Below are positions 8,977 through 33,603 of a stretch of DNA of 33,603 nt, one piece after another (position 1 is the stretch's first letter; each line of letters opens with the position of its first letter). The stretch covers positions 1-33,603 of the forward strand of contig JAAWPF010000003.1 of the NCBI GenBank assembly GCA_022799835.1, given 5' to 3'. The position numbers were made by a program, and so were the translations under genes. The DNA is from Lawsonibacter sp. GTDB lineage: Bacteria; Bacillota; Clostridia; Oscillospirales; Oscillospiraceae. Under the pieces are notes generated by a model, which made no database searches, was not told where the DNA came from, and saw nothing but the letters and a program-made list of their open reading frames with translations.

Positions 8977-8992
8977 GAGAGGGGGATAAGAA

Positions 8993-10525
8993 ATGGAAGC
9001 TTTAATAAGCAGTTTTGTCAACCTGTTTGCCCCTGATACGCTGATCGCCTTGATGGTCGGCGTGTGCGGCGGCATGGTAATCGGCGCCCTGCCCGGGCTG
9101 AGCGCTACTATGGGTATCGCCCTTTTGATTCCTGTGACCTACGGTATGAACCCCGCAGCCGCGCTGACCATGCTGGCGGCCATCTACACCTCCGCCATCT
9201 ATGGCGGCTCAATCTCCGCTATTCTGATTCACACCCCCGGCACCCCCAGTTCAGCCGCCACCTGTCTGGACGGCTACCCCATGACCCAGAAGGGCGAGGC
9301 GCTTCACGCCATTGGCCTGTCCACCGTCTCGTCCTGTATCGGCGGCTTCCTCAGCGCCATCGCGCTGCTGATTATCGCCCCGCTGCTGGCCAAGGTCTCC
9401 CTGGCCTTCAGTTCCTCAGAGTATTTCCTCATCGCCATCTTTGGCCTGACCCTGATTGCCAGCCTGGCGGGTAAATCCGTGATCAAGGGCCTGATTGCCG
9501 GCGCCATCGGTCTGATGGCCGGCCTGATTGGTATGTCCCCCGACGCTTACGCCCGGTTCACCTTCAAAATGCCCGCGCTGCTGGGCGGCATCTCCCTGAT
9601 TCCGGCAATGATCGGCCTGTTCTCTATCTCCCAGGTCATGATCCAGGCGGAAGAGCGGGGCCTGGGCCACTCCACCGTGAAGGAGGAAGCCAAGATCCAG
9701 GGCCATTTCCTGCCCCCCCTGAAGGAGTTCCTGGGCCTGCTGCCCCTGATTCTGAAGTGCTCTGTTGTGGGTATCTTGGTAGGCATCCTCCCCGGCGCGG
9801 GCGGTGATATCGCCTCCTGGGTAGGCCTGAATATGGCCAAGGGCAGCTCCAAGACCCCCCAGCTCTTCGGTACCGGCCATCCCGAGGGCATCGCCGCCCC
9901 CGAGGCAGCCAACAACGCCGTCACCGGCGGCGCCCTGATCCCCCTGCTGACCCTGGGTATTCCGGGCAGCTCTACCGCGGCGGTGCTGCTGGGCGGCCTG
10001 ACTATCCACGGCCTCCAGCCTGGCTATCAGCTCTTTGACAAGTATGCCGACGTCACCTATGCCGTAATTCTGGGCTTCCTGGCGGCCAACATCATCATGG
10101 GCCTGGTAGGCTGGGCTGTGGGCCGCTACGTGGTCAAGGTCTCCAAGGTGCCCCTGCCCCTGCTCATCCCCTGCATCACCGTGTTCTCCATCCTAGGCTC
10201 CTACGCGGCCAGCCAGAACATGACTGACGTCTATGTGGCGGTCGTGTTCGGTATGATCGGCTATCTGATGCGCAAGTACGGCGTGCCCCCCGCACCTGTG
10301 GTGCTGGGCCTGATTTTGGGCCCCATGGCGGACAACCACTTCTATCAGGCCAGCCGCATGGCTAACGGCGTGCCCCTGGTGAACTACATGCTCAGCCGCC
10401 CCATCAGTGTGGGCATTATGGTCCTCATCGTGCTGGCCCTGTTCGCTCCGGTCATCTCCAAGGTGATCGCCAAGAAGTACCAGGCCAAGTTTGGCGATGT
10501 GGGCGAGTCCGCCGAGGATGTGTAA
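8993..10525 (+). CDS. Tripartite tricarboxylate transporter permease (TctA)
   Basis: 510 aa; GALPGLSATMGIALLIPVTYGMNPAAALTMLAAIYTSAIYGGSISAILIHTPGTPSSAAT is a TctA hallmark. Confidence 0.95.
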   Translation: MEALISSFVNLFAPDTLIALMVGVCGGMVIGALPGLSATMGIALLIPVTYGMNPAAALTMLAAIYTSAIYGGSISAILIHTPGTPSSAATCLDGYPMTQKGEALHAIGLSTVSSCIGGFLSAIALLIIAPLLAKVSLAFSSSEYFLIAIFGLTLIASLAGKSVIKGLIAGAIGLMAGLIGMSPDAYARFTFKMPALLGGISLIPAMIGLFSISQVMIQAEERGLGHSTVKEEAKIQGHFLPPLKEFLGLLPLILKCSVVGILVGILPGAGGDIASWVGLNMAKGSSKTPQLFGTGHPEGIAAPEAANNAVTGGALIPLLTLGIPGSSTAAVLLGGLTIHGLQPGYQLFDKYADVTYAVILGFLAANIIMGLVGWAVGRYVVKVSKVPLPLLIPCITVFSILGSYAASQNMTDVYVAVVFGMIGYLMRKYGVPPAPVVLGLILGPMADNHFYQASRMANGVPLVNYMLSRPISVGIMVLIVLALFAPVISKVIAKKYQAKFGDVGESAEDV

Positions 10526-10614
10526 TCCCCGCTCAGCTTATAACGGAGATGGGGCCTCCGGTCCCGCCGTGTTATAAGGAACCTATCCACAATACATTTA
10601 TGGAGGTAAGCGTA

Positions 10615-11682
10615 ATGAAAATGAAGCGAATTCTGGCTGTCGCCCTCAGTGCCTGCATGGCTCTGACCATGTTGGCCTCCTGCGGCAACAACGGCAAGCA
10701 GCCCAACAGCGGCAACAATAGCAACACTTCCGCCAACAACAGCACCCAGCAGCCTGGCTCCGCCAGCACCCCCAAGACCATCGACTGGCCCAAGCAGGGC
10801 ATCAGCATCATCTGCCCCTTTAAGGCAGGCGGCGGCATGGATCTGTCCACCCGTCTGACCGCCAAGTACCTGGAGAAGTATCTGGGCGTCACCGTCACCG
10901 TCAACAACGTGGAGGGCGGCAACTCCTGGACCGGCTGGACCCAGGTAGCTCAGGCCAAGGGCGACGGCTATACTTTGGGCTTCGCCAACTACCCCGCTCA
11001 GGTCGCTGGCTACCTGAACCCCTCCGCCGGCATCCCCTTCACCTATAAGGACTTCGCCAGCATCGCCAACGTGGTCTCTGACCCTAACATCCTGGTTGTC
11101 TCCGCCAACCACAGCGACATCCAGACCGCTCAGGAGTTTATAGAGTACGCCAAGAACAACAGTATCGTTCTGGGTACCGGCGGCGGCGCCGGCTGCGATG
11201 ACGACGTGACCATCGCCAAGATCAACGACCAGCTGGGCCTGTCCATTGAGTCCGGCCGCAATGCCTCCACTGCCGAGTCCAAGGCCGCCATGCTGGGCGG
11301 ACACATCGCCGGCGTTATCGCCAACGTGTCCGAGTACTATGGCCTGGTGGACTCCACCGGCGACGACGCCATCCGCATCCTGTGCATCTTCTCCGACAAG
11401 CGCAACGACTTCCTTCCCGATGTCCCCACCTGGACCGAGTGCGGCTACGACGAGATCATCGGCGGCTCTGACCGCGGTCTGATCGGCCCTGCCAACCTGG
11501 ATCCCGACGTGAAGGCTCTGCTGATCGACACTTTGAAGCAGATTGAGCAGGACCCCGACTTCCAGGCTGACGCTGTCACCCAGGGTATGAGCATCGGCAT
11601 GAAGTACGGCGATGACTTCGAGGCATTCATCGCTGACACCGAGGCTACCATGACCGAGATGAAGCCCCTGTTCGGCTGGTAA
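10615..11682 (+). CDS. Tripartite tricarboxylate transporter substrate-binding lipoprotein (TctC/Bug family)
   Basis: ATG 10615 with upstream GGAGG; lipobox LTMLASCGN; IICPFKAGGGMDLSTRLTAKYLEKYLGVTVTVNNVEGG; third gene of the tct set. Confidence 0.92.
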   Translation: MKMKRILAVALSACMALTMLASCGNNGKQPNSGNNSNTSANNSTQQPGSASTPKTIDWPKQGISIICPFKAGGGMDLSTRLTAKYLEKYLGVTVTVNNVEGGNSWTGWTQVAQAKGDGYTLGFANYPAQVAGYLNPSAGIPFTYKDFASIANVVSDPNILVVSANHSDIQTAQEFIEYAKNNSIVLGTGGGAGCDDDVTIAKINDQLGLSIESGRNASTAESKAAMLGGHIAGVIANVSEYYGLVDSTGDDAIRILCIFSDKRNDFLPDVPTWTECGYDEIIGGSDRGLIGPANLDPDVKALLIDTLKQIEQDPDFQADAVTQGMSIGMKYGDDFEAFIADTEATMTEMKPLFGW

Positions 11683-18503: not shown

Positions 18504-19559
18504 CTATCCAATTCTCCGCCGCATCTGCTCCGGGTTATCTGAAAAGCTGATTGCCGATTCCGCCGCGATCTCCCTCGCTCTGTAGAGCGCCAGCAGGGAC
18601 TGATCCATTGTTATCATGCCCTCCGCGCCTCCGGCGGCAATCGCGTTGTCAATCTGATAGGTTTTATTGTCCCGAATCAGGCTTCGGATTGCATTGTTTA
18701 CCCGCATAATTTCAAAGGCGGGCACCAAGTCCCCTTTGACGCCGGGCACCAGCTGCTGGGATACAACCGTGTGCAGCACCATGCTCAGCTGCGCCCTCAC
18801 CTGCTCCTGCTGGCCGCTGGGGAAGGTGTCCACAATGCGGTCGATGGTGTTGACCGCCCCCTTGGTGTGCAGCGTGGCAATGAGCAGGTGGCCCGTCTCA
18901 GCCGCCGTCATGGCGGTGTGGATGGTCTCCTGATCCCGCATCTCCCCCAGCAGGATCACATCGGGCGCCTGCCGCAGACAGGCCCGCAGAGCCGAGGGAT
19001 AGTCTATGGTATCAATGGCGATCTCCCGCTGGCTTACAATGCTCCGCCGGTTTCGGTGAAGGTATTCGATGGGGTCCTCCAGGGTGATGATGTGGCACTC
19101 CCGCATCCGGTTAATCCGGTCAATGATACAGGCCTGGGTAGTGGATTTTCCGCTGCCCGCTGTGCCGGTGACCAAAATCATACCGTGGGATATGTCCGCC
19201 AGGGCTATGACCTGATCTGGGATCTTCAGGTCACGCCAGTGGGGGATATCGAAGGCGACCACCCGGATCACCATGGCCATTGATCCCCGCTGCCGGTAGA
19301 CATTGACCCGGAATCGGGCCAGTCCGGCCGCCGAGAAGGAGAAATCGTCATCCCCCTCCTCGTAATAGCGGTCCATGGGGCGGTTCGCGGCGGCATAGGC
19401 CTCCCGGACCAGGGTCTCCGCCTCTCTGGGCATCACGCGCTCAGCGCTCAGGGGAATCAGTCGATTCTCCCGCTTGGCGCACACCGACCCGCCGGCCACC
19501 ACAAACAGGTCGGAGGCCTGGTCGGCCACAGCCTGCTTCAAATATTCGATCAGTCCCAT
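18504..19559 (-). CDS. pilT: Type IV pilus twitching motility ATPase PilT-like
   Basis: Trimmed to ATG 19559; Walker A GTAGSGKST, ITLEDPIEYLH, LGEMRDQETIHTAMTAAETGHLLIATLHT. Confidence 0.92.
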   Translation of the reverse strand: MGLIEYLKQAVADQASDLFVVAGGSVCAKRENRLIPLSAERVMPREAETLVREAYAAANRPMDRYYEEGDDDFSFSAAGLARFRVNVYRQRGSMAMVIRVVAFDIPHWRDLKIPDQVIALADISHGMILVTGTAGSGKSTTQACIIDRINRMRECHIITLEDPIEYLHRNRRSIVSQREIAIDTIDYPSALRACLRQAPDVILLGEMRDQETIHTAMTAAETGHLLIATLHTKGAVNTIDRIVDTFPSGQQEQVRAQLSMVLHTVVSQQLVPGVKGDLVPAFEIMRVNNAIRSLIRDNKTYQIDNAIAAGGAEGMITMDQSLLALYRAREIAAESAISFSDNPEQMRRRIG

Positions 19560-19572
19560 ACCGGACCCTCCT

Positions 19573-19995
19573 TTAATATACCACACCGTCCCACAGCTCC
19601 AGCTCCTCGCTCGCCTCCCACTCCTGGGAGGGCATGGCCTGCCAGCGCAGCACGTTCCAGCTCCCGTCTCCGCCAATATACACCAGCGCCTGGAGCTGCT
19701 GGGTCTCTGAGATGGGACAGGCGTATTGGGCGTAGCTCCCATCGCTGCCGTAGAACGCTACCCCTTCGGGCCGCTCTCCCCGCCGCAGCCGAGCCAGAAT
19801 CTCCTGGGCCTGACAGTCGGCGGCGTAGTAATCGGCCACTGCCTGAGCCGTGGCGTCAGCCAGCCGGACATCGGCCTGTACGGTGGTCAGGCTCAGCAGG
19901 GCGAATATGGTCAGGCAGAGCACCGCGAACACCACCAGCAGGGACACGCCCCCCACCGCCGGCGGGGAGAAGCGCTCCCGATTCTCAGTCCGCAC
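19573..19995 (-). CDS. Small single-TM pilus-assembly/pseudopilin-like protein
   Basis: 140 aa, N-terminal hydrophobic segment (VGGVSLLVVFAVLCLTIFALLSLTTVQ), within T4P-like gene string. Confidence 0.6.
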   Translation of the reverse strand: MRTENRERFSPPAVGGVSLLVVFAVLCLTIFALLSLTTVQADVRLADATAQAVADYYAADCQAQEILARLRRGERPEGVAFYGSDGSYAQYACPISETQQLQALVYIGGDGSWNVLRWQAMPSQEWEASEELELWDGVVY

Positions 19996-20437
19996 CGCCG
20001 CTCACCTCCTGCTGCCAGGCCACCTCAAGCTCAAAGATTACCTTCGGCTCCTGGCCCACATGGTAACCCGTCACCACATATACCTTCGCTTTCCAAAGGC
20101 CGGGAACCTCTGTGGGCACGCCTCCGGACTCCAGGCGGTACACACCCTCCTCCACCGGGTTCCAGTCCTCGTCAAACTCCTGAAACAGCAGCCCCTGATA
20201 ACACTGATAGCCCAGTTTTTCCGCCGCTTTCACCTGAGCATTTCCCATATCTCCCCCAAAATGGCGGAGGGTCTCAGCGGCGTTCTGGCACAGGGTAACC
20301 GCCCGGTCCCGGACCTCGCTGTCCTTGGACAGGCCGTCTGACTTCACAAAGGCCTGTAAACACAGCGCCGCCGCCAGGGCGAACACCAGCAGCATCACCA
20401 TCTGCTCCATTAAAATAAGGGGTGGCTTATGCTTCAT
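19985..20437 (-). CDS. Small single-TM pseudopilin-like protein
   Basis: 150 aa; ILMEQMVMLLVFALAAALCLQAFV N-terminal helix; overlaps neighbours by 4-11 nt. Confidence 0.6.
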   Translation of the reverse strand: MKHKPPLILMEQMVMLLVFALAAALCLQAFVKSDGLSKDSEVRDRAVTLCQNAAETLRHFGGDMGNAQVKAAEKLGYQCYQGLLFQEFDEDWNPVEEGVYRLESGGVPTEVPGLWKAKVYVVTGYHVGQEPKVIFELEVAWQQEVSGGAD

Positions 20438-20913
20438 CCCGCCGCCCCCTCTCCACCGCGCGGCTTGAGGTACAACCTGTCCGTTCCGCCCGCGCCAGTT
20501 GTGATCTCCACGGTCAGCAGCCCGCCGTCCATGGCAAACGACAGGCCTCCCACCTCCATGATACGCTCTCCGTCCTCTGGGTCCAGCGCTATCCCCTCGC
20601 CGGAGTACAGTTCCATCAAATATCCGTCATACCAGTAAACTCTCGTCACATACCCGCCGCTGGTCAAGGTCAGCGCCTCGGTCTGGCCGAATGGCTCCAC
20701 CGTCACGCCCCCCCGGACGTCCCCCTGATGCACACGGGAGGTAATGTACTGCGCGCAGATTCGCCGCTCATAGGACTCCCGGTCCCGCTGCGTCAGCCGC
20801 TGATAGGCCCCCGCGCCCGTGAGCAATACGCCCAGCACACAGGCGGCGAACACACCAAACAGCAGCAGCATCAGCAGCCCATCCATATGGTGTTGACTGG
20901 CTTGTCTTCTCAT
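20434..20913 (-). CDS. Small single-TM protein, possibly DUF4860-like
   Basis: 159 aa; MDGLLMLLLFGVFAACVLGVLLTGAGAYQRL; ATGA-type 4-nt overlaps on both sides. The family name is from memory and unverified. Confidence 0.6.
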   Translation of the reverse strand: MRRQASQHHMDGLLMLLLFGVFAACVLGVLLTGAGAYQRLTQRDRESYERRICAQYITSRVHQGDVRGGVTVEPFGQTEALTLTSGGYVTRVYWYDGYLMELYSGEGIALDPEDGERIMEVGGLSFAMDGGLLTVEITTGAGGTDRLYLKPRGGEGAAG

Positions 20914-21233
20914 GGCAGGTTCTCCAGCACAGTAATGTCCGGCATCAGGTTCTCCGCGATGGCGGTGTAGTGGACCGTATAGCGCTTCTCATCGATTTGG
21001 ATTCCATAGTGTTTTGTCAAATAGTCCAGGCTGGAGGGGTAGGCCCCCTCCGTGGAGTAGCAGGCCACGCACCCGCGCCGCAGCGCCTCCTCCAGCTGGC
21101 GCAGGCTCTTATCGGAGTGTCCGCTGTCCAGATTGTCCACAGCCAGGGCAAAACACAAAAACACCCCCACCGCCAGCGCAAGGGGCAGCAGGCATCGAAG
21201 CATATTTATCCAACCGTTTTTTCTCCGTCCCAT
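20910..21233 (-). CDS. Small single-TM pseudopilin-like protein
   Basis: 107 aa; N-terminal hydrophobic helix then LRRGCVACYSTEGAYPSSLDYLTKHYGI, a pseudopilin-like globular start. Confidence 0.6.
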   Translation of the reverse strand: MGRRKNGWINMLRCLLPLALAVGVFLCFALAVDNLDSGHSDKSLRQLEEALRRGCVACYSTEGAYPSSLDYLTKHYGIQIDEKRYTVHYTAIAENLMPDITVLENLP

Positions 21234-21237
21234 CGCT

Positions 21238-22266
21238 TCACCCGATTGCCGCCATGATATTCATCAGCGGCAGCATCACTGACAGCAAGATCAGCCCCAC
21301 CAGCACCGAGCACACCAGTACCAGCGCCGGCTCCACCGCGCCCACCAGGGCGTCCAGGGCGGCATCGCCCTCCTCACTCAGGTCCTGGGCAATCTTTTCC
21401 ATAGAGGAATCCCCCGCGCCGCTGCGCTCGCCCAGCTCCAGCAGTCGGCACTGGCGTGCGGGCAGCAGGCCGCTGAGCCGCAGGGCAACGCCCAGGCTCT
21501 CCCCGTTTTCCAGCCGGGATTGGCAGCTCTGGCAGCGCTTTCGCGCGCCTCCCTCCATCAGATTGGCGGAGAGGGCCACCGCCTCCTCCACAGGCAGGCC
21601 GCTGGCCATGCCCATGGCCATGCCCTGGGCCAGCTTGGCATTATTCAGCTTTCGGGCGATCCCCCGGTCACCCCGGACAGCCCGCCAAAGTCTGGTCACA
21701 GCCGCCCGCAAAGGGGGAAGCACACTGAGCAGCATCCCCAGAACAACTGCCGCGCCCAGCACGATAAACAGCACTGGCATAATCTCCTCCAGGCGCTGCC
21801 CAAGGGCAAGGAGCCATGCCGCCGCCCCGGTGAGCTGCCCGCCCAGGGAGGCGTATACATCGTCAAAAATGGGCAGCACCTTGACCAGCAGCACTCCGAT
21901 GACCAACAGCATCAGTGCCAGCATCACCATCGGATACATAACCGCGCCGCGGACACGCCGGCTCAGCCGAGCCCGCTCCTCGTAGTACCAGGACAGGGCG
22001 CCCAAAGCCTCCTCCGTCCGCCCTGTCCGCTCCCCGACCTCGACCAAGCCGCTGACATAGACAGGGAAGCTCTTGCTCTCCCGCAGCGCGGCGGACAGGG
22101 AGGCCCCCTCATCCACCTGCTTGGCAAGGGAGGTCAGCAGCTTTTTCTGCACCCCGTCCTCTGACAGCAGGGACAGCGCGTCCGATGTACCCACCCCCGC
22201 ATGAAACAGCAGGGACAGTTCCAGGCATAAGCTGGCAATTTCTCTGTTGGAAATCTTATGTCTCAT
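21238..22266 (-). CDS. pilC: Type II secretion system F / PilC family protein
   Basis: Trimmed to ATG 22266; two T2SSF repeats (SLLFHAGVGTSDALSLLSED..., QGMAMGMASGLPVEEAVALSANLM...LLELGERSGAGDSSMEKIAQ) and TM segments. Confidence 0.9.
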   Translation of the reverse strand: MRHKISNREIASLCLELSLLFHAGVGTSDALSLLSEDGVQKKLLTSLAKQVDEGASLSAALRESKSFPVYVSGLVEVGERTGRTEEALGALSWYYEERARLSRRVRGAVMYPMVMLALMLLVIGVLLVKVLPIFDDVYASLGGQLTGAAAWLLALGQRLEEIMPVLFIVLGAAVVLGMLLSVLPPLRAAVTRLWRAVRGDRGIARKLNNAKLAQGMAMGMASGLPVEEAVALSANLMEGGARKRCQSCQSRLENGESLGVALRLSGLLPARQCRLLELGERSGAGDSSMEKIAQDLSEEGDAALDALVGAVEPALVLVCSVLVGLILLSVMLPLMNIMAAIG

Positions 22267-22292
22267 AAAAGCTCCCAGAAACAATATCAATC

Positions 22293-22324
22293 TTTGCGGG
22301 GCTGCAGGCCGGCAGCCCCGCAAA
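22293..22324 (-). other. Strong GC-rich intergenic hairpin without a clear U-tract
   Basis: TTTGCGGGGCTGC-6 nt-GCAGCCCCGCAAA, 13-bp perfect stem just after the transglutaminase stop. Confidence 0.8.
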
Positions 22325-22331
22325 AGAAAAA

Positions 22332-23426
22332 TCAATAGAGGTAGCGCACGGTATAATTTTTCCCGTTGCCAATATAGTCCATGATGGCCTGACTGCTGTT
22401 GCCCGAGGAAGCGAAGGTGGGGTCCATCCTCTGCCAGACTGTGCCGTCAAAATAGATGATGCTGTCAATCCAGCCTGTCTGCTCAGTCCAGACACTGACC
22501 CAGGCATGATAGACGCTGCCGGCATAGCCCACCACCAGCTTGCAGGGGACCCCCTGGCTGCGGAGCATCCCCGCCATCAGAGCGGCATAGTCGAAGCAGA
22601 TGCCCTTGTTGTCGGCCAGGACCTTGTCCAGGTCGGGCAGATAGCCGCTCTGCACCGTCGCGGCCTTGGCGGTGTCATAGCTCAAATTGCCCACCACATA
22701 GTTGTAAACAGCCCCCACTTTGTCCAGAGGGTTGCTGAGATTCTGTGTCAGCTCCTTGGCCTTGGCGATGGTCTTGGCGGCCCCCTCATAGTTGACATAC
22801 TGGTTGGGCCGCAGGAAGGGAGCGAACTCGTCCTTCAGCGTCACCTCAAATGCGGCGGAGGCCAGTACAGCGTATTTCTTTCCTGTTGTGTTCTGCAGGG
22901 CCGTCACCTTATAGCTGCCGTTGCCATCGGACAGGGGATAGGTCGTCCAGCTGCCGGTGGGCAGGTCGTAGGTGTAGGTCGTGGTGGGTCCGGTCACCTG
23001 CACCCGCAGCCGCTTGCTGCTGCTGCCGGGAAACCGAACCATGACATAGCCGTCCTGGATATTGGAGTAATCGATCTCAGCGCCGCCGCCGGTTTTCACC
23101 GATGTGCCCGAAGCGGCCGGCATCAGCATGGTGGACACGGCCGGCGGGGCAGAGGTCAGCGGCACCAGGTCCTCCTCCAAATGGGTCCCGTCAATGGGGA
23201 CCTGGTCAATAAAGGCAGGCCCGGCGGCCTCCCCGCTTCCGCTGCTCTCCGGCGCGGAGGTATCTCCCTCGCTGCTGGCAGGGGGTTCCGCCGCCTGGCT
23301 GGAGGAGGCGGGCTGTCTGCCGCCTGTGCTGACAGGGCCAAAAGCGTCCTCATCCGCAACAGCCTGCATACAGCCCGTCAGCACACAGGCCATCAGCAGC
23401 AGGGGGATCAATTTTTTCAGTTTCAT
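22332..23426 (-). CDS. Transglutaminase-like domain lipoprotein
   Basis: Trimmed to ATG 23426; lipobox LLMACVLTGCMQ; catalytic triad context KGICFDYAALMAGML, VYHAWVSVW, RMDPTFA. Confidence 0.88.
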   Translation of the reverse strand: MKLKKLIPLLLMACVLTGCMQAVADEDAFGPVSTGGRQPASSSQAAEPPASSEGDTSAPESSGSGEAAGPAFIDQVPIDGTHLEEDLVPLTSAPPAVSTMLMPAASGTSVKTGGGAEIDYSNIQDGYVMVRFPGSSSKRLRVQVTGPTTTYTYDLPTGSWTTYPLSDGNGSYKVTALQNTTGKKYAVLASAAFEVTLKDEFAPFLRPNQYVNYEGAAKTIAKAKELTQNLSNPLDKVGAVYNYVVGNLSYDTAKAATVQSGYLPDLDKVLADNKGICFDYAALMAGMLRSQGVPCKLVVGYAGSVYHAWVSVWTEQTGWIDSIIYFDGTVWQRMDPTFASSGNSSQAIMDYIGNGKNYTVRYLY

Positions 23427-23486
23427 GGCAGCCTCCTTTTGTGAGCAAACCAAAGTTATCCGTCATTCCGTCTCAGCGCCCGCGTC

Positions 23487-24119
23487 TCAGGCCTGGGTCT
23501 GCTCCTCCTGGACACAGCGCACGGTGAAGCGCTGCCGTCCGCCAATGGTACAGGTAAACAGGGTCAGGTCGTAGCCGCCGTAGCCGTTGGCCTCCAGCAT
23601 ATCCCGGGTCTGATTGGGCCTCAGCTGCTCCATGGCGGCCACGGAGTAGGTGAACACATTGCCCGCCATGTCGGTGAACCGGACCATATCACCCACATTC
23701 AGATTTACCAGCTGGCCGAAGTGCCGCTTGTAGTTATGTGCGGCGATAATCATATTATTTAAATAGGCCGACCCGTTATAGCGGCAGGGGGCGATCTTTA
23801 AATTGGGGTAGCTCCACTCGTTTAGAACGGGCAGCTCCAGGTCCAGGGCCGGGATGCTGATGGTGCCGACATAGTAGTTTCCGTCAATCTCCGTCACTGG
23901 CATCTCCACCCGGGGGTCGATCTGATAGGCGGGGATAACTCCTTCCGGAAGGTCCGTTTCGCTCGTTTCGTCGATTTTCATTGTCAGCGCCTGGAATGCC
24001 GCTCCCGCGCTGGCGCCGGCCCGGCCGTCCTCCCACATGTTGTAGGCGGTCAGACCACCTGCGCCCAGCAGCAGCAGCAGTCCCAGGGCCATACAGATCA
24101 GTCCGTCTCTATTCCTCAT
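23487..24119 (-). CDS. Sortase (probably class B/D-like)
   Basis: YVGTISIPALDLELPVLNEWSYPNLKIAPCRYNG, IIAAHNYKRHFG (His), LTLFTCTIGGRQRFTVRC (Cys, Arg). Confidence 0.85.
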   Translation of the reverse strand: MRNRDGLICMALGLLLLLGAGGLTAYNMWEDGRAGASAGAAFQALTMKIDETSETDLPEGVIPAYQIDPRVEMPVTEIDGNYYVGTISIPALDLELPVLNEWSYPNLKIAPCRYNGSAYLNNMIIAAHNYKRHFGQLVNLNVGDMVRFTDMAGNVFTYSVAAMEQLRPNQTRDMLEANGYGGYDLTLFTCTIGGRQRFTVRCVQEEQTQA

Positions 24120-25287
24120 CCTGCGCCCCCCTGTGCTTCACCCAGCCAATCAGGAACAGGAACAGCCCGCCGACGGCCAGCAGGGGCACCGGCCACCACA
24201 GCTGCCCGGTTTGGGGCAGATCCGCCAAGGGCACGTCCGGGTCGTCCAGCTCGATGATCTCATAGGGGTCGCCCGGGGTTTTAGGCGGCGGTCCCAGGGG
24301 CACATCCGGGTCGTCGATGTCAATGGGAGGCGTGGGAATATCCGGCGGGTCATCAGGCGTATTATCATCCGGATCTTTCGGATCATCCGGACGGGTATTC
24401 GTAATCTTATAATTTTTACCGTTATTTGTGGAGACGCTCACCTGATACCCGCTGACCCCCACCTCTCTCACGGTCCACTCGCTTTTAGCGTCCAGGTCAG
24501 TCCAAATGTGGCTCCAGCCGTTTTCCTGGCTCAGGGTCACCGTCTCATGCAGCTTGCCGTTGCCCCACAGCTCCACCTGAATGCTGGCCGGATGGTCGCT
24601 GAGCGGTCTCCCGGCCTCGTCCAGCCAGACTTTGCTCACACTCACCGAGGTCGGCTTAGGTTTCTCCGGGGGCGGGCCGGGGTCGGGTCCGGGTGTATCC
24701 GATTCAGCAGTGACTTTCTCCCTGAAATTTGCGTATACATCTGTGAGCCAAGTGTATGCTTCGCCCGCTTCCATCCAGTTAGGCAGGCAGACCAGACGGG
24801 GTTCGGTGGTATAGGTTGTTCTCTCCGCCTTGTCATAATAGGTTTTCTGAGGTTTTATCAGATAGAGACCCGGGGGCAGATCGCTGAACTTGACAACTGC
24901 CTTTCCGCCGTCAAGCTGGGTTTTCCCCTCCCTGACCGGTTCGATTCCGCTGCCCGGCAGCTCCGAGTTCAGCGTCGTCGCCAGAGTTTTCCACTCCCCG
25001 GCTGTCGCTTTAGGCTCCAGGTCCTGGTTCAGTTTTTTCAAAATAGTCTCAAACCCGCCAATCGCGGTGTAGTTCACATCCGAATCCACGCTGGCAACCT
25101 GATAGAGCTCTACCGGCAATCCGCCGCAGGGGAACTCCAACGTCAAGGAGCAAATCGTGTCCAGCGGAAGTTTTTTTGTCGGGGCATTACCGTTCGCCGC
25201 CAAAACTGTCTGGGTCAGTCCGGAGATACATATCAACAGACACAGGCCCCACGAAACGGTTCCGCGCAGATATGTTTTCAGTCTCAT
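24109..25287 (-). CDS. Cna B-type domain LPXTG (LPQTG) surface protein, putative minor pilin
   Basis: Signal peptide; Cna_B domain VSVSKVWLDEAGRPLSDHPASIQVELWGNGKLHETVTLSQENGWSHIWTDL; C-terminal LPQTGQLWWPVPLLAVGGLFLFLIGWVKHRG. Confidence 0.88.
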   Translation of the reverse strand: MRLKTYLRGTVSWGLCLLICISGLTQTVLAANGNAPTKKLPLDTICSLTLEFPCGGLPVELYQVASVDSDVNYTAIGGFETILKKLNQDLEPKATAGEWKTLATTLNSELPGSGIEPVREGKTQLDGGKAVVKFSDLPPGLYLIKPQKTYYDKAERTTYTTEPRLVCLPNWMEAGEAYTWLTDVYANFREKVTAESDTPGPDPGPPPEKPKPTSVSVSKVWLDEAGRPLSDHPASIQVELWGNGKLHETVTLSQENGWSHIWTDLDAKSEWTVREVGVSGYQVSVSTNNGKNYKITNTRPDDPKDPDDNTPDDPPDIPTPPIDIDDPDVPLGPPPKTPGDPYEIIELDDPDVPLADLPQTGQLWWPVPLLAVGGLFLFLIGWVKHRGAQDEE

Positions 25288-25326: not shown

Positions 25327-26193
25327 TCAGGGCGTTATATTCTTCTGAAAGCTCTTCTTTAATTTTTCTTTCTTTTTCTTCTTTTTTCCACCGGGGTTGA
25401 CAATCAGCCACACCGCCAGCAGGAAGAGCAACGGGGCGGCCAACACAGGGGCCACCAGCATGGGGTCGACGCGTATCGCGTCGGAGGTAATTCGGGCCGA
25501 GCCCGAACTGGGATTCTCAATTCGAGTTCCCCGCACCAGCAGCCGGTGGCTGTTGATGCCGTAAGGGGTACAGGTCACCAGGGTACAGTAGTCCTGACCC
25601 TGTACAATGCCCAGCTCGCTCATCTCCTCCGGGAGGACAATGCGAATCTGGTTCACCTCATAGGTGAGTGTCTCGTTCAAAATTTGCAGCTGGAAGTAGT
25701 CGCCCTCGGCCAGCTGGTCCAGGTCGGTGAACAGCTTGGCGCTGGGCAGGCCGCGGTGGCCGGACAGCACGCAGTGGCTGGACACGCCGCCCACCGGGAG
25801 GGAGCTGCTCTCGATATGCCCCACCGCCACCTGGAGGACGGCATCGTCCGTGCCGTGGTAGATGGGCAGGGTGCAGTTGATTTTTGGGATATCAATATAG
25901 CCCATGATGCCGTCGCCGGCCATATTCAGCTGGCCGCGGTAGTCCTCCCACTCCTGCTCTGACAGCAGATAGGGTGTGGACCGCCCTGACATCCTCTCGT
26001 TATAGGCACAGGCATTCATCCAGATTTGCTCGTAATCGACGGCGGACAGTTCCGCCACCGCCTCGGCATAGTTGGAAATGGCCCGTGATTGATGAAAGGA
26101 GTTCCAATAATCGCTTGCTGTGGGGTACAGCAGCAGGGCGACCCCCGCCAGCAGTACTCCTATCAGCAATACGGTAGAAAGATGCTTCTTCAT
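25327..26193 (-). CDS. Class C (pilin-polymerising) sortase
   Basis: YPTASDYWNSFHQSRAI, DIPKINCTLPIYHGTDDAVLQVAVGHIESSSLPVGG, VLSGHRGLP (His), TLVTCTPYGINSHRLLVRG (Cys, Arg), C-terminal TM. Track start 26202 is a TTG; ATG at 26193. Confidence 0.92.
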   Translation of the reverse strand: MKKHLSTVLLIGVLLAGVALLLYPTASDYWNSFHQSRAISNYAEAVAELSAVDYEQIWMNACAYNERMSGRSTPYLLSEQEWEDYRGQLNMAGDGIMGYIDIPKINCTLPIYHGTDDAVLQVAVGHIESSSLPVGGVSSHCVLSGHRGLPSAKLFTDLDQLAEGDYFQLQILNETLTYEVNQIRIVLPEEMSELGIVQGQDYCTLVTCTPYGINSHRLLVRGTRIENPSSGSARITSDAIRVDPMLVAPVLAAPLLFLLAVWLIVNPGGKKKKKKEKLKKSFQKNITP

Positions 26194-26204
26194 CTGCTTC
26201 AAGT

Positions 26205-26282: not shown

Positions 26283-27914
26283 TTACTCGTCGTCAGCACT
26301 GCCCACACGGCGCTTGGTAACCAGAAGGACTACCGCGCCAATGGCCAGCGCGCCGCCGGCAATGTAGAAAATGGTGGTGCCGATGCCGCCGGTCTCGGGC
26401 AGCCGGGTGCCCTGCAGGTTCTCGATCTTGGCATAGCCGGCATCGTCGAAATAGTCGTTCTCAATATGAAGGGTCAGCTTGCCGGCCTCCTTGCCTTCAG
26501 TGGGAGTGGTCGAGGCATTAATGACAATCTTCACAGGCTTGCCGCCATTGATGGGGTTGTAGTTAGCGGGGGCAGTTTCGACCATCCAATAGGTCCCAGC
26601 CTCCAGGCCTTTCACGTTATGGGTAACAGTGCCATCTGTAGCTTTATTCTCCGTCAGCACTATACCAGCAGCGCCAGCAATCAGATTGCCGTTTTCATCA
26701 ACCTGATCCTCAGGATACAGAGTGAACACCGCGCCCTCCAGCGGATCTCCGTCGCCGTTGACCTTGTCGATTTTCAGCTCCAGCTCAAAGACCTTGGCGT
26801 TGTCCTCGTCAACGATACCGCCGCCGTTAATTTCCAGGCCGACCTTGTTGTTGTTGGTATCGTTGCTGTTAGCCCCGGTATTGGTCGTCTCATTGCCGGT
26901 GAAACTGGCCTTATAGATCACTTCGATATAGTCGCGGCCCTCAATATTGTCGATATTCTCCACATGAGGAATATCAATGTGGAACGTGCAATCATCACTC
27001 GGATCTGTACTAATCGTATAATCTTGGCCCTGACCCAGCTCTCTGAGCAAAGTTCCATCGCTCTTATAGGCTTTAACAGCTTCAATTTCTTCATAGCCCA
27101 GGCCGGCACCCTGGGTATCGTGCAGGGTGATATTGTAGCCGTTTCCTATCCCGCCGTTCTCCACGCCTGACTTATAGGCATCAAAGTTATCGGGCAGGGT
27201 AACCGTCAGCTTAAACCGAATGCCTTCCCCGGCCTGTTCAGCGCTGTAAATCTCGCCGTCGGACCACTCATCGTCAGAAGTGGGGTCCCAGACCTCCTTT
27301 TTGACTGTGCTCTTGCCTTCCTTGGGCTTGATTGTGGTATCCGCGCCGGCAGTCAGCAGCATATAGGTGGTGAGAGAACCCGCTTCATCCTTAATGGCGA
27401 AGTAGCCGGTCAGAGGATTGTCAATACTATCACCTGTCTCATTGTTCAGACTGACAGTACGGGTGATTGCGCCGCTGTCGATAATCGCCATGGCCAGCTT
27501 CTCATTCGCCGTAATCCGGTCCTCCCGGCTGCTTTGGGGATAGGCGTTGATGATGAGGTCAGCCACCGCTCGGGCGCCTTCTGCGCTTCCGAGGTCCGCG
27601 GGCTTGCTCTCCGCGTTAAAAGTAGCGCCAGTGGCATCCAGAGCCACCAGGGCGTTCCAAAGCGCCTCCTTATCTGTTACCGAGGGGCCCCAGTCCAGAG
27701 TAGCCAGGTTAAGGCTGGTAGCGTCCGAACCCGCGGCCTTGAAAATCTGATAGGCGGTGAAGGTGTGCCCCTGACCGCTGGTGGTCAGTTTGATCTGGGT
27801 GGGCTGCGGCGGGTTATCGCTGCCGCTCCCCTGGGAAGCCATAGCGGGAGCAACCATTCCCAGCGCCAAAACCAGCGCCAGAAGGGAGGCCCCCAGTTTC
27901 TTCAAATTTTTCAT
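26283..27914 (-). CDS. SpaH/EbpB-type LPXTG major pilin (isopeptide-forming)
   Basis: 543 aa; signal peptide; TAYQIFKA, E-box-like GTYWMVETAPANYN, C-terminal LPETGGIGTTIFYIAGGALAIGAVVLLVTKRR; SD GAAAGGAG. Confidence 0.92.
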   Translation of the reverse strand: MKNLKKLGASLLALVLALGMVAPAMASQGSGSDNPPQPTQIKLTTSGQGHTFTAYQIFKAAGSDATSLNLATLDWGPSVTDKEALWNALVALDATGATFNAESKPADLGSAEGARAVADLIINAYPQSSREDRITANEKLAMAIIDSGAITRTVSLNNETGDSIDNPLTGYFAIKDEAGSLTTYMLLTAGADTTIKPKEGKSTVKKEVWDPTSDDEWSDGEIYSAEQAGEGIRFKLTVTLPDNFDAYKSGVENGGIGNGYNITLHDTQGAGLGYEEIEAVKAYKSDGTLLRELGQGQDYTISTDPSDDCTFHIDIPHVENIDNIEGRDYIEVIYKASFTGNETTNTGANSNDTNNNKVGLEINGGGIVDEDNAKVFELELKIDKVNGDGDPLEGAVFTLYPEDQVDENGNLIAGAAGIVLTENKATDGTVTHNVKGLEAGTYWMVETAPANYNPINGGKPVKIVINASTTPTEGKEAGKLTLHIENDYFDDAGYAKIENLQGTRLPETGGIGTTIFYIAGGALAIGAVVLLVTKRRVGSADDE

Positions 27915-27968: not shown

Positions 27969-30900
27969 TTACGTCTCATCCTTCGCCCCCCCTCTGTGGG
28001 TTCGCTTTTTATACCACAGGCAGCCCGCCGCCATAATCAGCAGCGTCCCCGCCCAAGCATACAGATTGACGCCTGGCCCACCGGTTTCAGGCAGCTCGTA
28101 GCGGTAATAGTTGGTACAAATGACATTCGACTGGCCGGTGCTCATGCCGCCGGTACACCGTATATCCTTGACGCGGTCCTTGCCCTCCACCGAGTAGGTC
28201 ACCTGGAAGTCCGTCCTCTGGCCGACCTCCTCAATGGTAAATGTCACACGCTTTGGCAGGCCGCGTATCTCGATATACTCGCCATGCTTCAGTTTTATCT
28301 CCGCCGTCTTGGGCGCCACCGAGTTTTCGCTTTGATTGCCCGCAATTTGTCCCAACAGCTCCTTGCTCTCCTCGGGGGCCTCCGCACCCTTGCTATACTT
28401 ATAGATGTCATAGGTGTCGGCAGTGTTGAACAGAGAGAGCCGGAAGGTGTACTCCTCACCGTAATCCGAATCCAGGCTGCTGTCCACCACTTTTTCCAGG
28501 CGCAGGTAGTTATCCCCGGGATTGGCCTCTGTGTAAGAGGGGACACTGATCATATTGGGCAGAGTAAACTGCATCCAGCAGGTGGAGCCGGAGGCGCCGC
28601 GCTCGGTGTAGTAGAAGTCCAAGAGGAAGGATTTTTCCTCGTGTCCCTCCTTACCGCCGGGAATATAGTCCCACAAGTCCACATATTCACCCACAGAGCT
28701 GTGAACACCGCCAATGTCACATACCATGCGGCCATCCAGGAATACCCACATGTCGTCATCGCCATAGAAGTAATACTCCAGCGGGCCAACGTAGCCCTCC
28801 GGGAGGGTAAACTGAACGGTAAAGTGCATTCCGAAATAGGCGTTGTGGTCCTCTCCGTCATCGCTATCCGGAAGCGTATTGTCCGTATCGTTGAACTTCG
28901 GCTTGCTTTCACCTCCAAAATGCGGGTCCGTATTGGTAACAGTATCCATTGGCCAGAAATTATTGGAGATTATCCACTTGGTCTTATTCCAGTTTTGTCT
29001 CATAAGACTGAAGCTCTCCAGATTCGACTCACTCATCACTCCGCTCACCGCAGTCAGGGTATAGGTGTCGCCGCTGCGGTCAAATACCAGATTCTGGTCG
29101 TTATAAACCGTTCTGCCCGGAACCGTTCCGTTCCCAAACAGGTTTGGCGCGTCCACATCCGCGCTGAACATCAGTTTGCCGCCAATGACCTGGCTGGTCA
29201 GGCCAAAGGTGCAGTCACCAAAGCTGCCCTTGCCCGCTTGTATAGTGTTATTGGTCCCATTGGACATATTCAGGTTGTTGCCGTTCCATTGTTCTGTTTC
29301 CAGCCCCATTTTCGTTTGACCGTTACCAAACGCAAGCTTCGCGCCGCTGCCCTTATAGTTTCCAGTATCATTGATCCCATGTTTTACTGTGTTTACGGGG
29401 CTTTTCCCATCATTGGGGCCGTTGGTAATGTCATAGTCGAAGAATGTGGCGCTATAATTGGCCCTATTTCCAGTCGCCCGGTAAATCAGCCGAATTTGAG
29501 TCCCTTCCGCAATACCGACGGTGTGCTCATCGACAGCATCCAAGGAGTTGGTATATTTCAAGCCGTCAAAATAGGGGTCCAGCGACACAGGGCTGTTCAT
29601 AATCGGCTCTTCCGGGTAAAGCTGTACCGCTCCGTCTGGCTGTGTGACTCTGACTTGGGCCAGAGAGTAGTGGATGCCGCCGCCGTCATCAAACTTATCC
29701 ACCACATCGCTGAGATCCTTCGTGGTCATCCCGTCGCCGTTGCCCGCCATGGTATCGTACTGCTGTGGGGCATCCCGATAAATCTGAGTTTCTTCCAGCT
29801 GAAATACTACCTTTCGGCTGGTTCGATCCAGCATCAGCCGCATTTGTTGGGTGTTGAGCGTCCCGTTCTGCGGCAGGACCGGCGCTGTCCTGTTATTCCC
29901 GGCCGCGCTGGTGTCAATGAAATCCAGCTCGACATATCTGTCTGTTCCGTCTACACCTGTTTCGTTTTCAAGAACGGGCCGGTTCAGCAGGGCGTAATAC
30001 TCCACGGTGTAATTGGGGAACTGTCCGGCCTGGGCCGCAAACGCCACCCCGCGCGCCCGGGGCGAGACCTGGAACAGCATAGAGACAGGGCCAGCCACCG
30101 CGGTTTCATTCACCACCACGGAGCTCAGCTCGGTCGTCCCATTCTCAGGCGCCTCACTGGAGAACGCGCCCAACATGATCTCGGGAGCCGCAGTTTTCTC
30201 TGATTCTTCTCCGCTGTCGATGTCGACATCATTGTCAATCGCCATGGTATCCGCTTCCTTATTCACCAGCGCGTCTACCAGTTCTTCGCTGAAGACCACC
30301 TCGGCCTCGATCTTGCACTGGGACAGATCGACCTCCCGCCCGTCGCTGGAAGTGACGGAGAATGCCAGCACCGACAGGATCATCTGCTCCGCACCAGACT
30401 TCGGGACAGAGGCGGCAATCTCCTGATACTCCTGGCTGTCCTGATCCGGCTCAGTCACCTGGAAATTGATCTGTACTGACCTCTCCGGCTGAACGGCGGC
30501 CTCTGGCCCCTCAGCGGCCTCCTCTGGCCCCTCTGTCTGGCTGTCCTCCCCTGACTGGACAGGGGCTTGCACCAAAGGAATCTCAATCTCTCCGCTGGTC
30601 ACGCTTGTTTTGTCAGCATCAGCACTGTTGCCGGCGTCCGGTTCTGCCATGTCTGTGCTGTCTGGCGCCGCGGAGGCATCTGTACGGTCTGGCGGCTGGG
30701 AGCTATCCGCACTGCCGCCGTCACTGATGTCTGATTCATCAGCCGGTCCTTCCGGCTGATGCCCCATTCCGCTGTCCTGGAACAGCGGAGCGCTGTCCTC
30801 TCCAATCAGTGTGGCGGGACCTGTAACATGGAAAATCACGTGGAATGCCTCAGACTCATATTCAAAATAATCATCCAGCTCTACCGCAGCCGGTTCCTTC

Positions 30901-32516
30901 GGTTCCTCCGGGTTCTCCGGTTCCCCCGGAATCTCCTGCTTCTCCTCCAGGCAGACCAGACTGTGGATGTGTTCCGGCAGCGTGCAGCGCAGCTCACCGC
31001 TCTCAAAATAGCACTCATCCGTGTGGATGTGTTCATTTTGTCCGCAGAAGTAAAGATTCTCCTCCTTGGGAACAATATCCATATAGCACTCTTCCGCATG
31101 GACGTGCTCCTCTATTCCGCACGAAAGCACCGCAGCCTCCACCGGTTCCCCCTCGGGGGTAAAGAAACACTCATCGGTGTGCTGATGGAGAACAATCTCC
31201 GGCTTTCCGCAGGTCAGTATCATCTCCTCGACCTCACCGGTCTCCTCATCATAGATGTACTCGTAGCAATTATCTGTGTGGGTATGGAGGACCAGCTCCT
31301 CCCGCTGGCAGGCCAGCAGCTCGGTGAACTCATAGCACTCATCAGTATGGATATGGCCGCTTTCCCGCTCCTCCTCCTGACAGCGCAGCTCTTTTGTCCA
31401 CTCATAGCAGCTGTCGCTGTGAATATGACCCTGTTCCTCCTCTTCGCAGATGAGGATTTTCTCCTCCGGATAACACGCGTCGGTATGGGTGTGGCCTTGT
31501 TCCCCCTCTTCACAGACGAGGGTCCGCTTCTCCGGGTAGCAGGCGTCGGTGTGGGTGTGGCTCCCGCCCTCCTCCTGCGTACAGGTGAGTACCTTTTCCG
31601 CAGGGTAACAGGCATCGGAGTGGGTATGGCCGCCCCCCTCTTTCTGACCGCAGGTGAGGACCTCCTCTGTCTCCACCGTATAGCAGGAGCCGGAGTGGCT
31701 GTGGCCGGCCTCGATCACATTCCCCTCCTCATCCAGCACGTCGCTGCTCTCCGGCTGGCCGCAGGTGAGGACCTCTCTTGTCTCTTCCGTGTAGCAGGCG
31801 TCGGTGTGGGTATGGCCCTCCGTCTCCGCCTTGCCGCAGGTGGGCGATGTACCCTGCTCCGTTGTATAACAGGCGTCGGTGTGGGTGTGGCCCTCCGTCT
31901 CCTGGCCGCAGGCGGGGGTATCGCCGCGCTCCACCCGATAACAGGCGTCGGTATGGGTGTGGCCGTTCCCCTCCTTCTGGCCGCAGGCGGGCGATGTGCT
32001 CTTCTCCACTGTATAGCAGGCGTCGGTGTGGACGTGGCCGCTCGCGGCCTCCTGGCCGCAGACCAGCTCTTCGCTCCGCGTATAGGTATAGCAGGACGGT
32101 CCATGGGTATGGCCCAGACTCTGGCGCTCCTCACAAATCAGCTCCCGATGTTCCCGATAACAGTCGCTGCTGTGGATATGGAGTTCCCGCTCAGGAAGCG
32201 GGCAAATCAGCTTGCCCGTCATGTCATAGCATCTGGAATCGTGGGTATGGATCACAATTTCTCCATCCTGCCCCACAGTGCAGATCAGCTCCGGCTGGGG
32301 AGCGACCATCTCCACTGTCCAACAGGCTTCCGTATGTTCATGTGCTTCCTTTCCACACAACAATTTATTAGACTGTGTAACCGCGGGAATAATCAACGCG
32401 TAAGCAGTGGCGAACACAACGACAACCGCCAGACAGCGCAAAACCACCGCCCTGCGCCGGTTCTGCTGTCTGGTTGTCAGATAATACTGCACCCGCATTG
32501 CCAAGTTCCGCCTCAT
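27969..32516 (-). CDS. Large LPXTG-anchored surface protein / putative pilus-tip adhesin with Cys-His repeats and fibro-slime-like domain
   Basis: 1515 aa from ATG 32516 (SD AAGGAGGG; track start 32537); N-terminal TM/signal, about 470-aa Cys/His repeat region, acidic linker, fibro-slime-like region (PEGYVGPLEYYFYGDDDMWVFLDGRMVCDIGGVH), LPETGGPGVNLYAWAGTLLIMAAGCLWYKKR. Confidence 0.9.
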   Translation of the reverse strand: MRRNLAMRVQYYLTTRQQNRRRAVVLRCLAVVVVFATAYALIIPAVTQSNKLLCGKEAHEHTEACWTVEMVAPQPELICTVGQDGEIVIHTHDSRCYDMTGKLICPLPERELHIHSSDCYREHRELICEERQSLGHTHGPSCYTYTRSEELVCGQEAASGHVHTDACYTVEKSTSPACGQKEGNGHTHTDACYRVERGDTPACGQETEGHTHTDACYTTEQGTSPTCGKAETEGHTHTDACYTEETREVLTCGQPESSDVLDEEGNVIEAGHSHSGSCYTVETEEVLTCGQKEGGGHTHSDACYPAEKVLTCTQEEGGSHTHTDACYPEKRTLVCEEGEQGHTHTDACYPEEKILICEEEEQGHIHSDSCYEWTKELRCQEEERESGHIHTDECYEFTELLACQREELVLHTHTDNCYEYIYDEETGEVEEMILTCGKPEIVLHQHTDECFFTPEGEPVEAAVLSCGIEEHVHAEECYMDIVPKEENLYFCGQNEHIHTDECYFESGELRCTLPEHIHSLVCLEEKQEIPGEPENPEEPKEPAAVELDDYFEYESEAFHVIFHVTGPATLIGEDSAPLFQDSGMGHQPEGPADESDISDGGSADSSQPPDRTDASAAPDSTDMAEPDAGNSADADKTSVTSGEIEIPLVQAPVQSGEDSQTEGPEEAAEGPEAAVQPERSVQINFQVTEPDQDSQEYQEIAASVPKSGAEQMILSVLAFSVTSSDGREVDLSQCKIEAEVVFSEELVDALVNKEADTMAIDNDVDIDSGEESEKTAAPEIMLGAFSSEAPENGTTELSSVVVNETAVAGPVSMLFQVSPRARGVAFAAQAGQFPNYTVEYYALLNRPVLENETGVDGTDRYVELDFIDTSAAGNNRTAPVLPQNGTLNTQQMRLMLDRTSRKVVFQLEETQIYRDAPQQYDTMAGNGDGMTTKDLSDVVDKFDDGGGIHYSLAQVRVTQPDGAVQLYPEEPIMNSPVSLDPYFDGLKYTNSLDAVDEHTVGIAEGTQIRLIYRATGNRANYSATFFDYDITNGPNDGKSPVNTVKHGINDTGNYKGSGAKLAFGNGQTKMGLETEQWNGNNLNMSNGTNNTIQAGKGSFGDCTFGLTSQVIGGKLMFSADVDAPNLFGNGTVPGRTVYNDQNLVFDRSGDTYTLTAVSGVMSESNLESFSLMRQNWNKTKWIISNNFWPMDTVTNTDPHFGGESKPKFNDTDNTLPDSDDGEDHNAYFGMHFTVQFTLPEGYVGPLEYYFYGDDDMWVFLDGRMVCDIGGVHSSVGEYVDLWDYIPGGKEGHEEKSFLLDFYYTERGASGSTCWMQFTLPNMISVPSYTEANPGDNYLRLEKVVDSSLDSDYGEEYTFRLSLFNTADTYDIYKYSKGAEAPEESKELLGQIAGNQSENSVAPKTAEIKLKHGEYIEIRGLPKRVTFTIEEVGQRTDFQVTYSVEGKDRVKDIRCTGGMSTGQSNVICTNYYRYELPETGGPGVNLYAWAGTLLIMAAGCLWYKKRTHRGGAKDET
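30951..32357 (-). repeat. Coding array of 19 HxHx3C modules, nearly all with a preceding Cys
   Basis: Counted by eye in the translation: HEHTEACW, HTHDSRCY, HIHSSDCY, HTHGPSCY, HVHTDACY, HTHTDACY (several), HSHSGSCY, HTHSDACY, ... HIHSLVC; spacers typically xCGQxxxxG. Confidence 0.9.
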
Positions 32517-32564: not shown

Positions 32565-33158
32565 CTACAGAATCCCCATCACGTTCAGGGGCCAGGCCCG
32601 GAATAGCAGCCTGCCGACGATCTGCTCATGGGCGATGCAGCCCAGCACAGAATTGCGGGAATCCAATGATACGCTTCGGTGGTCCCCCATCACAAAGATC
32701 CTGGACTCCGGGACCTGATAGGGGAGTGTGATATCGCAGTTTCCAAAGGCCTTCTCTGTCAGGTAGGGCTCATACAGCTCCCGGTCGTTGACAAACACTG
32801 TGCCCTCTTCGTTGATGTTGACCCAGTCTCCCGGGCCGGCTATTACGCGCTTCACCAGAATTTTGTTGTCGTAGTAGAAGGCAATCACGTCTCCCGTCTG
32901 GAAATCGGACCCCTTCAGGGCAACCACCACGTCTCCTCCCGTCAGGGTGGGGGTCATGGAGTTTCCGCTGATCTGGAGCACCGGCACCCACAGCGTAGCC
33001 ACCAGCACAGCGGCCGCCGCCACGGTAATCAGGGCGTAAATCGTGTTGCGCATTACACGGCGAAACCGCCAGCGGTATTTCTCCCGCCCCAGCTCCGCCT
33101 CCAGCTGCTCAATGGAGGGGATCTCCAGAGGTTTGCGCTCTTTATTCTTCTTTTTCAT
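32565..33158 (-). CDS. lepB: Signal peptidase I
   Basis: Trimmed to ATG 33158; SGNSMTPTL (Ser), ILVKRVIAGPGDWV (Lys), VMGDHRSVSLDSR. Confidence 0.92.
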   Translation of the reverse strand: MKKKNKERKPLEIPSIEQLEAELGREKYRWRFRRVMRNTIYALITVAAAAVLVATLWVPVLQISGNSMTPTLTGGDVVVALKGSDFQTGDVIAFYYDNKILVKRVIAGPGDWVNINEEGTVFVNDRELYEPYLTEKAFGNCDITLPYQVPESRIFVMGDHRSVSLDSRNSVLGCIAHEQIVGRLLFRAWPLNVMGIL

Positions 33159-33171
33159 GCGGTCTCCATTC

Positions 33172-33603
33172 CTAATCATGTTGCCAGCCGAAAAAGAGAG
33201 TTGTCTTTCCGTTCTCTTTCTTCTTTTTCACTCGGAAAGGCAGCTTGCTCTGGCTGGACGCCTCCCGCTTTTCAGAACGGCGCTCCGGCGCGGCCGGACG
33301 GCGCCTCGGCTCCTGACCCAATCCGGGCTCCTCCGGGGGGTACTGCCTGGGTCGGGCCGGCGGCTCCGGGGCACTATAGCGCCCTGACTCCGGCGGTCTG
33401 GACCGGGGCGGCTCCGGGGCGTAGGCCCCGTCGTCCTGGAAGTCCCACTCGGCTTGAGGCTCCTCCGGGGGGTACTGCCTGGACCGGGTCGGCGGCTCCG
33501 GGGCCCTATAGCGCCCTGGCTCCGGCGGTCTGGACCGGGGCGGCTCCGGGGCGTAGGCCCCGTCGTCCTGGAAGTCCCACTCGGCTTGAGGCTCCTCCGG
33601 GGG
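33172..33603 (-). CDS. Partial proline-rich repeat protein of unknown function (N-terminus beyond right edge)
   Basis: Open in frame from 33603 to TAG 33174-33172, not in ORF track because truncated; reads PPEEPQAEWDFQDDGAYAPEPPRSRPPEPGRYRAPEPPTRSRQY... ending VKKKKENGKTTLFFGWQHD. Confidence 0.65.
   Translation of the reverse strand, partial: PPEEPQAEWDFQDDGAYAPEPPRSRPPEPGRYRAPEPPTRSRQYPPEEPQAEWDFQDDGAYAPEPPRSRPPESGRYSAPEPPARPRQYPPEEPGLGQEPRRRPAAPERRSEKREASSQSKLPFRVKKKKENGKTTLFFGWQHD
33326..33603 (-). repeat. 132-bp tandem direct repeat (44 codons), two full copies plus a partial third
   Basis: GGCTCCTCCGGGGGG recurs at 33326 and 33458 and its start again at 33590, spacing exactly 132 bp, with near-identical intervening sequence. 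Confidence 0.92.

Follow-up and report, generated by a model that had tools for sequence, protein, structure and literature searches.

A 1522-aa LPXTG surface protein of Lawsonibacter sp. carries, close behind its signal segment, an array of 19 tandem C-x(n)-HxH-x3-C modules, which is probably a mobile N-terminal metal-binding bead domain on tip-type subunits of the sortase pili of gut anaerobes. The array lies at 30951..32357 on the minus strand of the window, that is, the whole stretch of 33,603 nucleotides that was analysed, and it covers aa 61-529 of the ORF. The sequence-only reading had placed nineteen such modules in an LPXTG protein, and exactly this was found. Precisely these limits enclose 19 exact H-x-H-x3-C motifs, and a single Cys precedes each of them; the protein ends in LPETG.

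The 469 residues of the array hold 38 Cys and 39 His, and they are strongly acidic (101 Asp/Glu against 26 Lys/Arg). The pattern C-x(4,20)-HxHx3C gives 34 overlapping matches (19 modules) in the array, as against a mean of 0.3 and a maximum of 6 in 2000 shuffles of it. Chance or low complexity as the origin of the array is ruled out by these shuffles together with the conservation of the modules. A simple DNA repeat is ruled out as well, since the modules have a mean protein identity of about 45% and DNA-level tandem repeats are seen in short stretches only. These are, therefore, old modules that have been under selection. The aromatic residue that was thought to close each module (C-[Y/F/W]) is present in 18 of the 19; the last module reads C-L. 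Across the homologous proteins, Cys makes up 8.2% of the arrays as compared to 0.49% of the remainder of the same proteins, and no HxHx3C was found in that remainder.

About 920 modules from about 100 homologous proteins, mainly of gut Clostridia with some from Coriobacteria, were compared. A module measures roughly 23 residues. The array regions were found first by HxHx3C, so modules with several losses at once could escape, and in anchored tests of single losses (the other three residues as anchors, two main loop lengths), H1 was kept in 665 of 668 modules, H2 in 665 of 666 and C2 in 665 of 673. Of 921 modules, 30 lack C1 and 789 have exactly one Cys ahead of HxH. Poor conservation of the Cys and His positions across homologues had been named among the observations that would together refute the metal or disulfide role; it was not seen, as H1, H2 and C2 each persist in more than 98% of modules, and about 97% have C1. 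Cys/His swaps, which are common in zinc fingers, were looked for at the ligand positions of the homologous modules and none was found. The flanking residues are less strict: Tyr, Phe or Trp follows C2 in about 75-87% of modules, and Gly follows C1 in about 54-59%.

The loop from C1 to H1 is mostly either 4 or 7 residues long. Among arrays with at least five modules, the 4-residue loop is found in 84% of the first, 70% of the last and 11% of the middle modules. In the window, module 1 (32322..32357, minus strand, aa 61-72) and modules 17-19 (30951..31121, minus strand, aa 473-529) are such short-loop caps, C-x4-HxH-x3-C, and modules 2-16 (31122..32321, minus strand) mostly follow C-x6..8-HxH-x3-C. 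Window modules 1-3, together with most of 13-19, match the end modules of the arrays at three other loci (L033, L004 and L034) in the same order, while the centre stays unpaired; central modules 5-12 are the section whose copy number varies between homologues. The short-loop ends, and the ordered pairing of the ends around an unpaired centre, thus indicate cap modules with an expandable middle. Across the carriers, arrays range from 2 to 24 modules.

The array-bearing protein, P0001 (27969..32537, minus strand), probably starts at its second ATG (aa 8, nt 32516), because AGGAGG overlies the first codons. Its signal/transmembrane segment, of the YALILPAIT type and ending VVVFATAYALIIPAVTQS, lies directly before the array (32379..32450, minus strand), an arrangement shared by 100 of 101 homologous ORFs. 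The array is followed by an acidic linker and a long stretch that matches no family, and then by a fibro-slime domain (TIGR02148; 28566..28847, minus strand, aa 1231-1324; E 2.5e-16, 59.9 bits against a curated cut-off of 45), DUF7601 (PF24547; 28173..28505, minus strand, aa 1345-1455) and, with the membrane anchor, the LPETG sorting motif (28080..28094, minus strand, aa 1482-1486). PMC12617251 lists DUF7601 among the families in which intramolecular isopeptide bonds are predicted. P0001 has both ends expected of a pilus subunit: the N-terminal signal segment, and a C-terminal LPXTG, membrane segment and positive tail.

The place of the array behind the signal is fixed. Homologous ORFs with a start number 101, and in nearly all of them the first HxHx3C is situated about 15 residues past the hydrophobic signal segment (range 8-41); the exception is L109, where it lies about 480 residues in. 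When proteins with a YALILPAIT-type signal were collected from the fetched DNA, 35 of 36 bore the array immediately after it under a strict test; the remaining one (L061) has the array too, its first module carrying an insertion of two residues. The array, therefore, travels with this signal. The bodies that follow are mutually unrelated and adhesin-like, and include fibro-slime, SpaA/Cna_B/DUF5979, VWA, collagen-binding, ricin lectin, LRR and CHAP types.

On the minus strand of the window, the genes run in the order signal peptidase I, P0001, SpaA-fold LPETG pilin, sortase, Cna_B LPQTG protein and second sortase, and look like a sortase-pilus operon with the array protein as its large first subunit. 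The signal peptidase I gene (S26; 32565..33179, minus strand; E 5.8e-32, with SGNSMTP and VKRV) is directly upstream of the array gene. The SpaA-fold pilin (26283..27914, minus strand) is the likely backbone; a simple pattern search gave no pilin motif in it, and an E-box-like YWMVETAPANY is visible in its sequence. The sortase that follows (25327..26202, minus strand) is class C-like, with TLVTC and a C-terminal membrane segment. Next are the Cna_B LPQTG protein, a likely ancillary pilin (24109..25287, minus strand), and the second sortase, with TLFTC (23487..24119, minus strand). The cluster thus holds a pilin-polymerising sortase and a backbone pilin, as is expected around a sortase-assembled pilus subunit.

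The same arrangement recurs elsewhere. Among the 75 of 79 named public-genome loci that have enough upstream sequence, 43 have a related signal peptidase gene as the immediate upstream neighbour of the array gene, and the two mostly overlap or lie no more than 60 bases apart. In the full set of 79, 39 loci have a sortase C relative near the array gene and 38 have a pilin there; many contigs are too short for this to be judged. It had been suggested that the modules are presented on the cell surface or at a pilus tip; the LPXTG end and the recurring order of signal peptidase, array protein, pilin and sortase lend support to this.

The surroundings of the operon also deserve a mention. Directly downstream of the pilus genes, after the second sortase, are a transglutaminase-like lipoprotein gene and then T2SSF, DUF4860 and T2SSE, a Tad/type II-like cluster (18504-23453, minus strand); a transglutaminase is also seen downstream of the pilus genes in L033 and L034. 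Upstream of the signal peptidase gene, a minus-strand ORF cut by the window edge (33172-33603) ends in a Pro/Glu-rich tail with 132-bp tandem repeats (33326-33603) that are 96% alike. The same upstream place is held in L033, L034 and L048 by a coiled-coil protein with a variable tail (TDKELQKLGRR.LLQLLLDQA in L033 and L048), and the pilus operon may have this ORF as its conserved first gene. Farther away, at 8530-11682 on the plus strand, the window has a complete tripartite tricarboxylate transporter (TctB, TctA, TctC) with adjoining genes for altronate/galactarate dehydratase and 2-hydroxyacid dehydrogenase, which belong to ordinary sugar-acid catabolism.

Among genomes of the same family, 29 of 201 are carriers; samples taken from the class and from the phylum gave 11 carriers in 291 and 4 in 349, the window's own genome being included in each count. 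The named loci belong to Oscillospiraceae, Lachnospiraceae, other Clostridia and Coriobacteria, and their sources are largely gut, rumen or faecal. The closest relative is Colidextribacter sp. OB.20 (L033), whose array has 21 modules; the best segment shows 64% and the signal peptidase 93%. The suggestion that similar strings occur in surface proteins of other gut Firmicutes proved sound, homologous carriers being present in gut Clostridia. The further idea that such arrays always belong to LPXTG or pilus proteins holds for the larger part only. An LPxTG-type end is present in 43 of 55 complete carriers longer than 700 aa, and four more show, by eye, LPESG, LPAAG or LPEAG variants; a minority of carriers, mainly from rumen and deer gut, have no anchor (CHAP and other domains), and some are without both LPXTG and pilus genes. 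In six rumen or deer-gut loci (L035, L036, L038, L039, L050 and L078), the proteins are secreted and have up to 21 modules, with no LPXTG end or signal peptidase neighbour detected; that of L036 ends in a CHAP domain (peptidoglycan hydrolase-like). A phage origin was considered and dropped. The sole 'phage' match, MT835974.1 (L128), is an unverified GenBank record named 'Bacteriophage sp.' from human faeces, and looks like mislabelled bacterial DNA; it bears the same bacterial operon of signal peptidase, array protein, pilin and sortase. No array relatives were found in viral contigs or in plasmids.

Searches by sequence in Pfam, NCBIfam and PDB returned no known domain for the module, and full-text literature searches found no paper naming the motif or the array. 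An AlphaFold model of six window modules was of low confidence (pLDDT 62). For three perfectly regular modules of a relative (L013), pLDDT was 71 overall and reached 96 in a block from the end of module 1 to the start of module 2; in this model, a short helical turn holds C2, with the same turn pattern in every module. No fold relatives of either model were found in the PDB.

A mechanism that would accommodate these observations can be outlined. Each module may bind one metal ion, most likely Zn2+, the usual metal of Cys2His2 sites, through its Cys-His-His-Cys set, and the bound metal would fold a bead that otherwise has no core. Nineteen such beads in line would form an acidic, protease-resistant rod. 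The co-encoded signal peptidase would cut the signal segment, and the sortase would join the C-terminus of P0001 to the pilus shaft. From known pilus biology, the array would therefore be left as the free N-terminus and the outermost segment of the fibre, where it could extend or present the tip, or it could form multivalent, possibly metal-bridged, contacts.

Two roles had been proposed for the regular Cys and His spacing, serial metal binding and a disulfide-staple rod. The near-invariance of all four residues over the roughly 920 modules is what a CHHC site would predict and lends the metal its support. A predicted metal site is favoured because C, H, H and C are conserved together, and a disulfide alone needs no histidines. 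In a disulfide-stapled rod, an intramodule Cys-Cys bond would close each module and the histidines would have some other purpose. The two Cys per module in the 789 counted above suit such a rod, as does its extracellular location, and disulfide-bearing pilins do exist in Actinobacteria (PMC3485203, which also cites work on the exclusion of Cys from exported Gram-positive proteins). However, HxH is conserved as well as C2, which a staple would not require, and the machinery for making disulfides is scarce. In a survey of 21 carrier genomes, 19 of them counted as at least 90% complete, VKOR was found in 0 of 21, Thioredoxin_4 over the cut-off in 0 of 21 and DSBA-family proteins in 2 of 21. Since VKOR, DsbA and the DsbA-like Thioredoxin_4 are almost absent from the carriers, and the hosts are gut anaerobes, the stapled rod seems unlikely. 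The sequences favour metal-held thiolates over disulfides, though they do not amount to proof. Several results weigh against the metal-binding tip array: Cys/His swaps are missing, the six-module model is of low confidence, neither model resembles a PDB fold, no metal-transport or metal-sensing gene adjoins the array gene, and some carriers have neither LPXTG nor pilus genes.

Metal binding might also serve storage, the array acting as a metallothionein-like sponge for Zn, Ni or Cu that captures the metal at the surface, so that it can be taken up or detoxified. Many tandem sites, the strong acidity and a variable copy number would all be in keeping with a sponge; but no metal-transport, metal-sensing or other metal-regulatory gene was found beside the array gene in the window, the carriers are adhesin-like, and the position-specific caps and the positional orthology of the end modules look architectural. 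We regard storage as quite unlikely. The fixed signal-proximal place could, instead, come from a function in export, or from the shuffling of domains, and not from one at the tip. In an export or assembly element, signal and array would together set the timing of secretion or of processing by signal peptidase, and metal binding would fold this unit outside the membrane as a ratchet. The near-complete association of the YALILPAIT-type signal with the array, the fixed distance between the two and the adjoining signal peptidase gene point this way, whereas up to 24 modules are far beyond what the processing of a signal needs and many carriers have no such neighbour, which makes an export element improbable.

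The preferred reading, a metal-binding bead array on tip-type pilus subunits, can be extended more tentatively. Extracellular, metal-pinned CHHC bead rods with short-loop caps and an expandable centre would be an undescribed family that forms the outermost segment of sortase pili in gut Clostridia and Coriobacteria, and tip shape and adhesion would be dependent on a metal, zinc or another, and also on the sulfide or redox conditions of the gut. We hold this wider proposal to be possible, somewhat short of an even chance. If it is true, common gut anaerobes have a different, metal-based way of building an extracellular fibre, and gut zinc and sulfide are tied to colonisation.

Among known systems, the closest are the sortase-assembled (SpaA/Fim-type) pili of Gram-positive bacteria, with which the window shares a signal segment, an LPXTG end, and an operon that combines a class C-like sortase with a backbone pilin, as well as isopeptide-type domains (DUF7601, SpaA, Cna_B). 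In Firmicutes, Cys is generally kept out of exported proteins, pilins are usually Cys-poor and pili are stabilised by isopeptide bonds; we know of no described tip pilin with an N-terminal Cys/His repeat array. The body of P0001 scores above the curated cut-off for fibro-slime proteins (TIGR02148), but the array lies outside that family and is also found on bodies without that domain. As a short tandem bead with two Cys and two His, the module resembles Cys2His2 zinc fingers and CHHC/CCHC zinc knuckles. It differs from the classical C2H2 finger (C-x2-4-C-x12-H-x3-5-H) in being secreted and in its order and spacing, C-x4/7-H-x-H-x3-C; no convincing zinc-finger match was found in PDB or Pfam, and no zinc-finger profile matched the window fragment. 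Metallothioneins are small, with about 30% Cys in CxC/CxxC and thiolate clusters, unlike the array, which has 8% Cys, one Cys pair per module and equal His. PCYCGC (PF13798) matched 7 of 60 array fragments weakly (best E 3.6e-5), possibly as an effect of composition, and was set aside as a weak lead for the module family as most fragments were unmatched. PCYCGC lipoproteins are likewise Cys-rich and surface-exposed, and the gene of one adjoins that of an Fe3+ binding protein (PMC13068155), but they have a seven-Cys pattern of their own. What is new here, besides the lack of a named family in the searched libraries, is the operon link to the signal peptidase, the constant position of the array after a single signal type, the layout of caps and centre and the near-absolute conservation of the ligands. 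Sortase pili are a known kind of system; those with an N-terminal bead array seem to be a so far undescribed variant.
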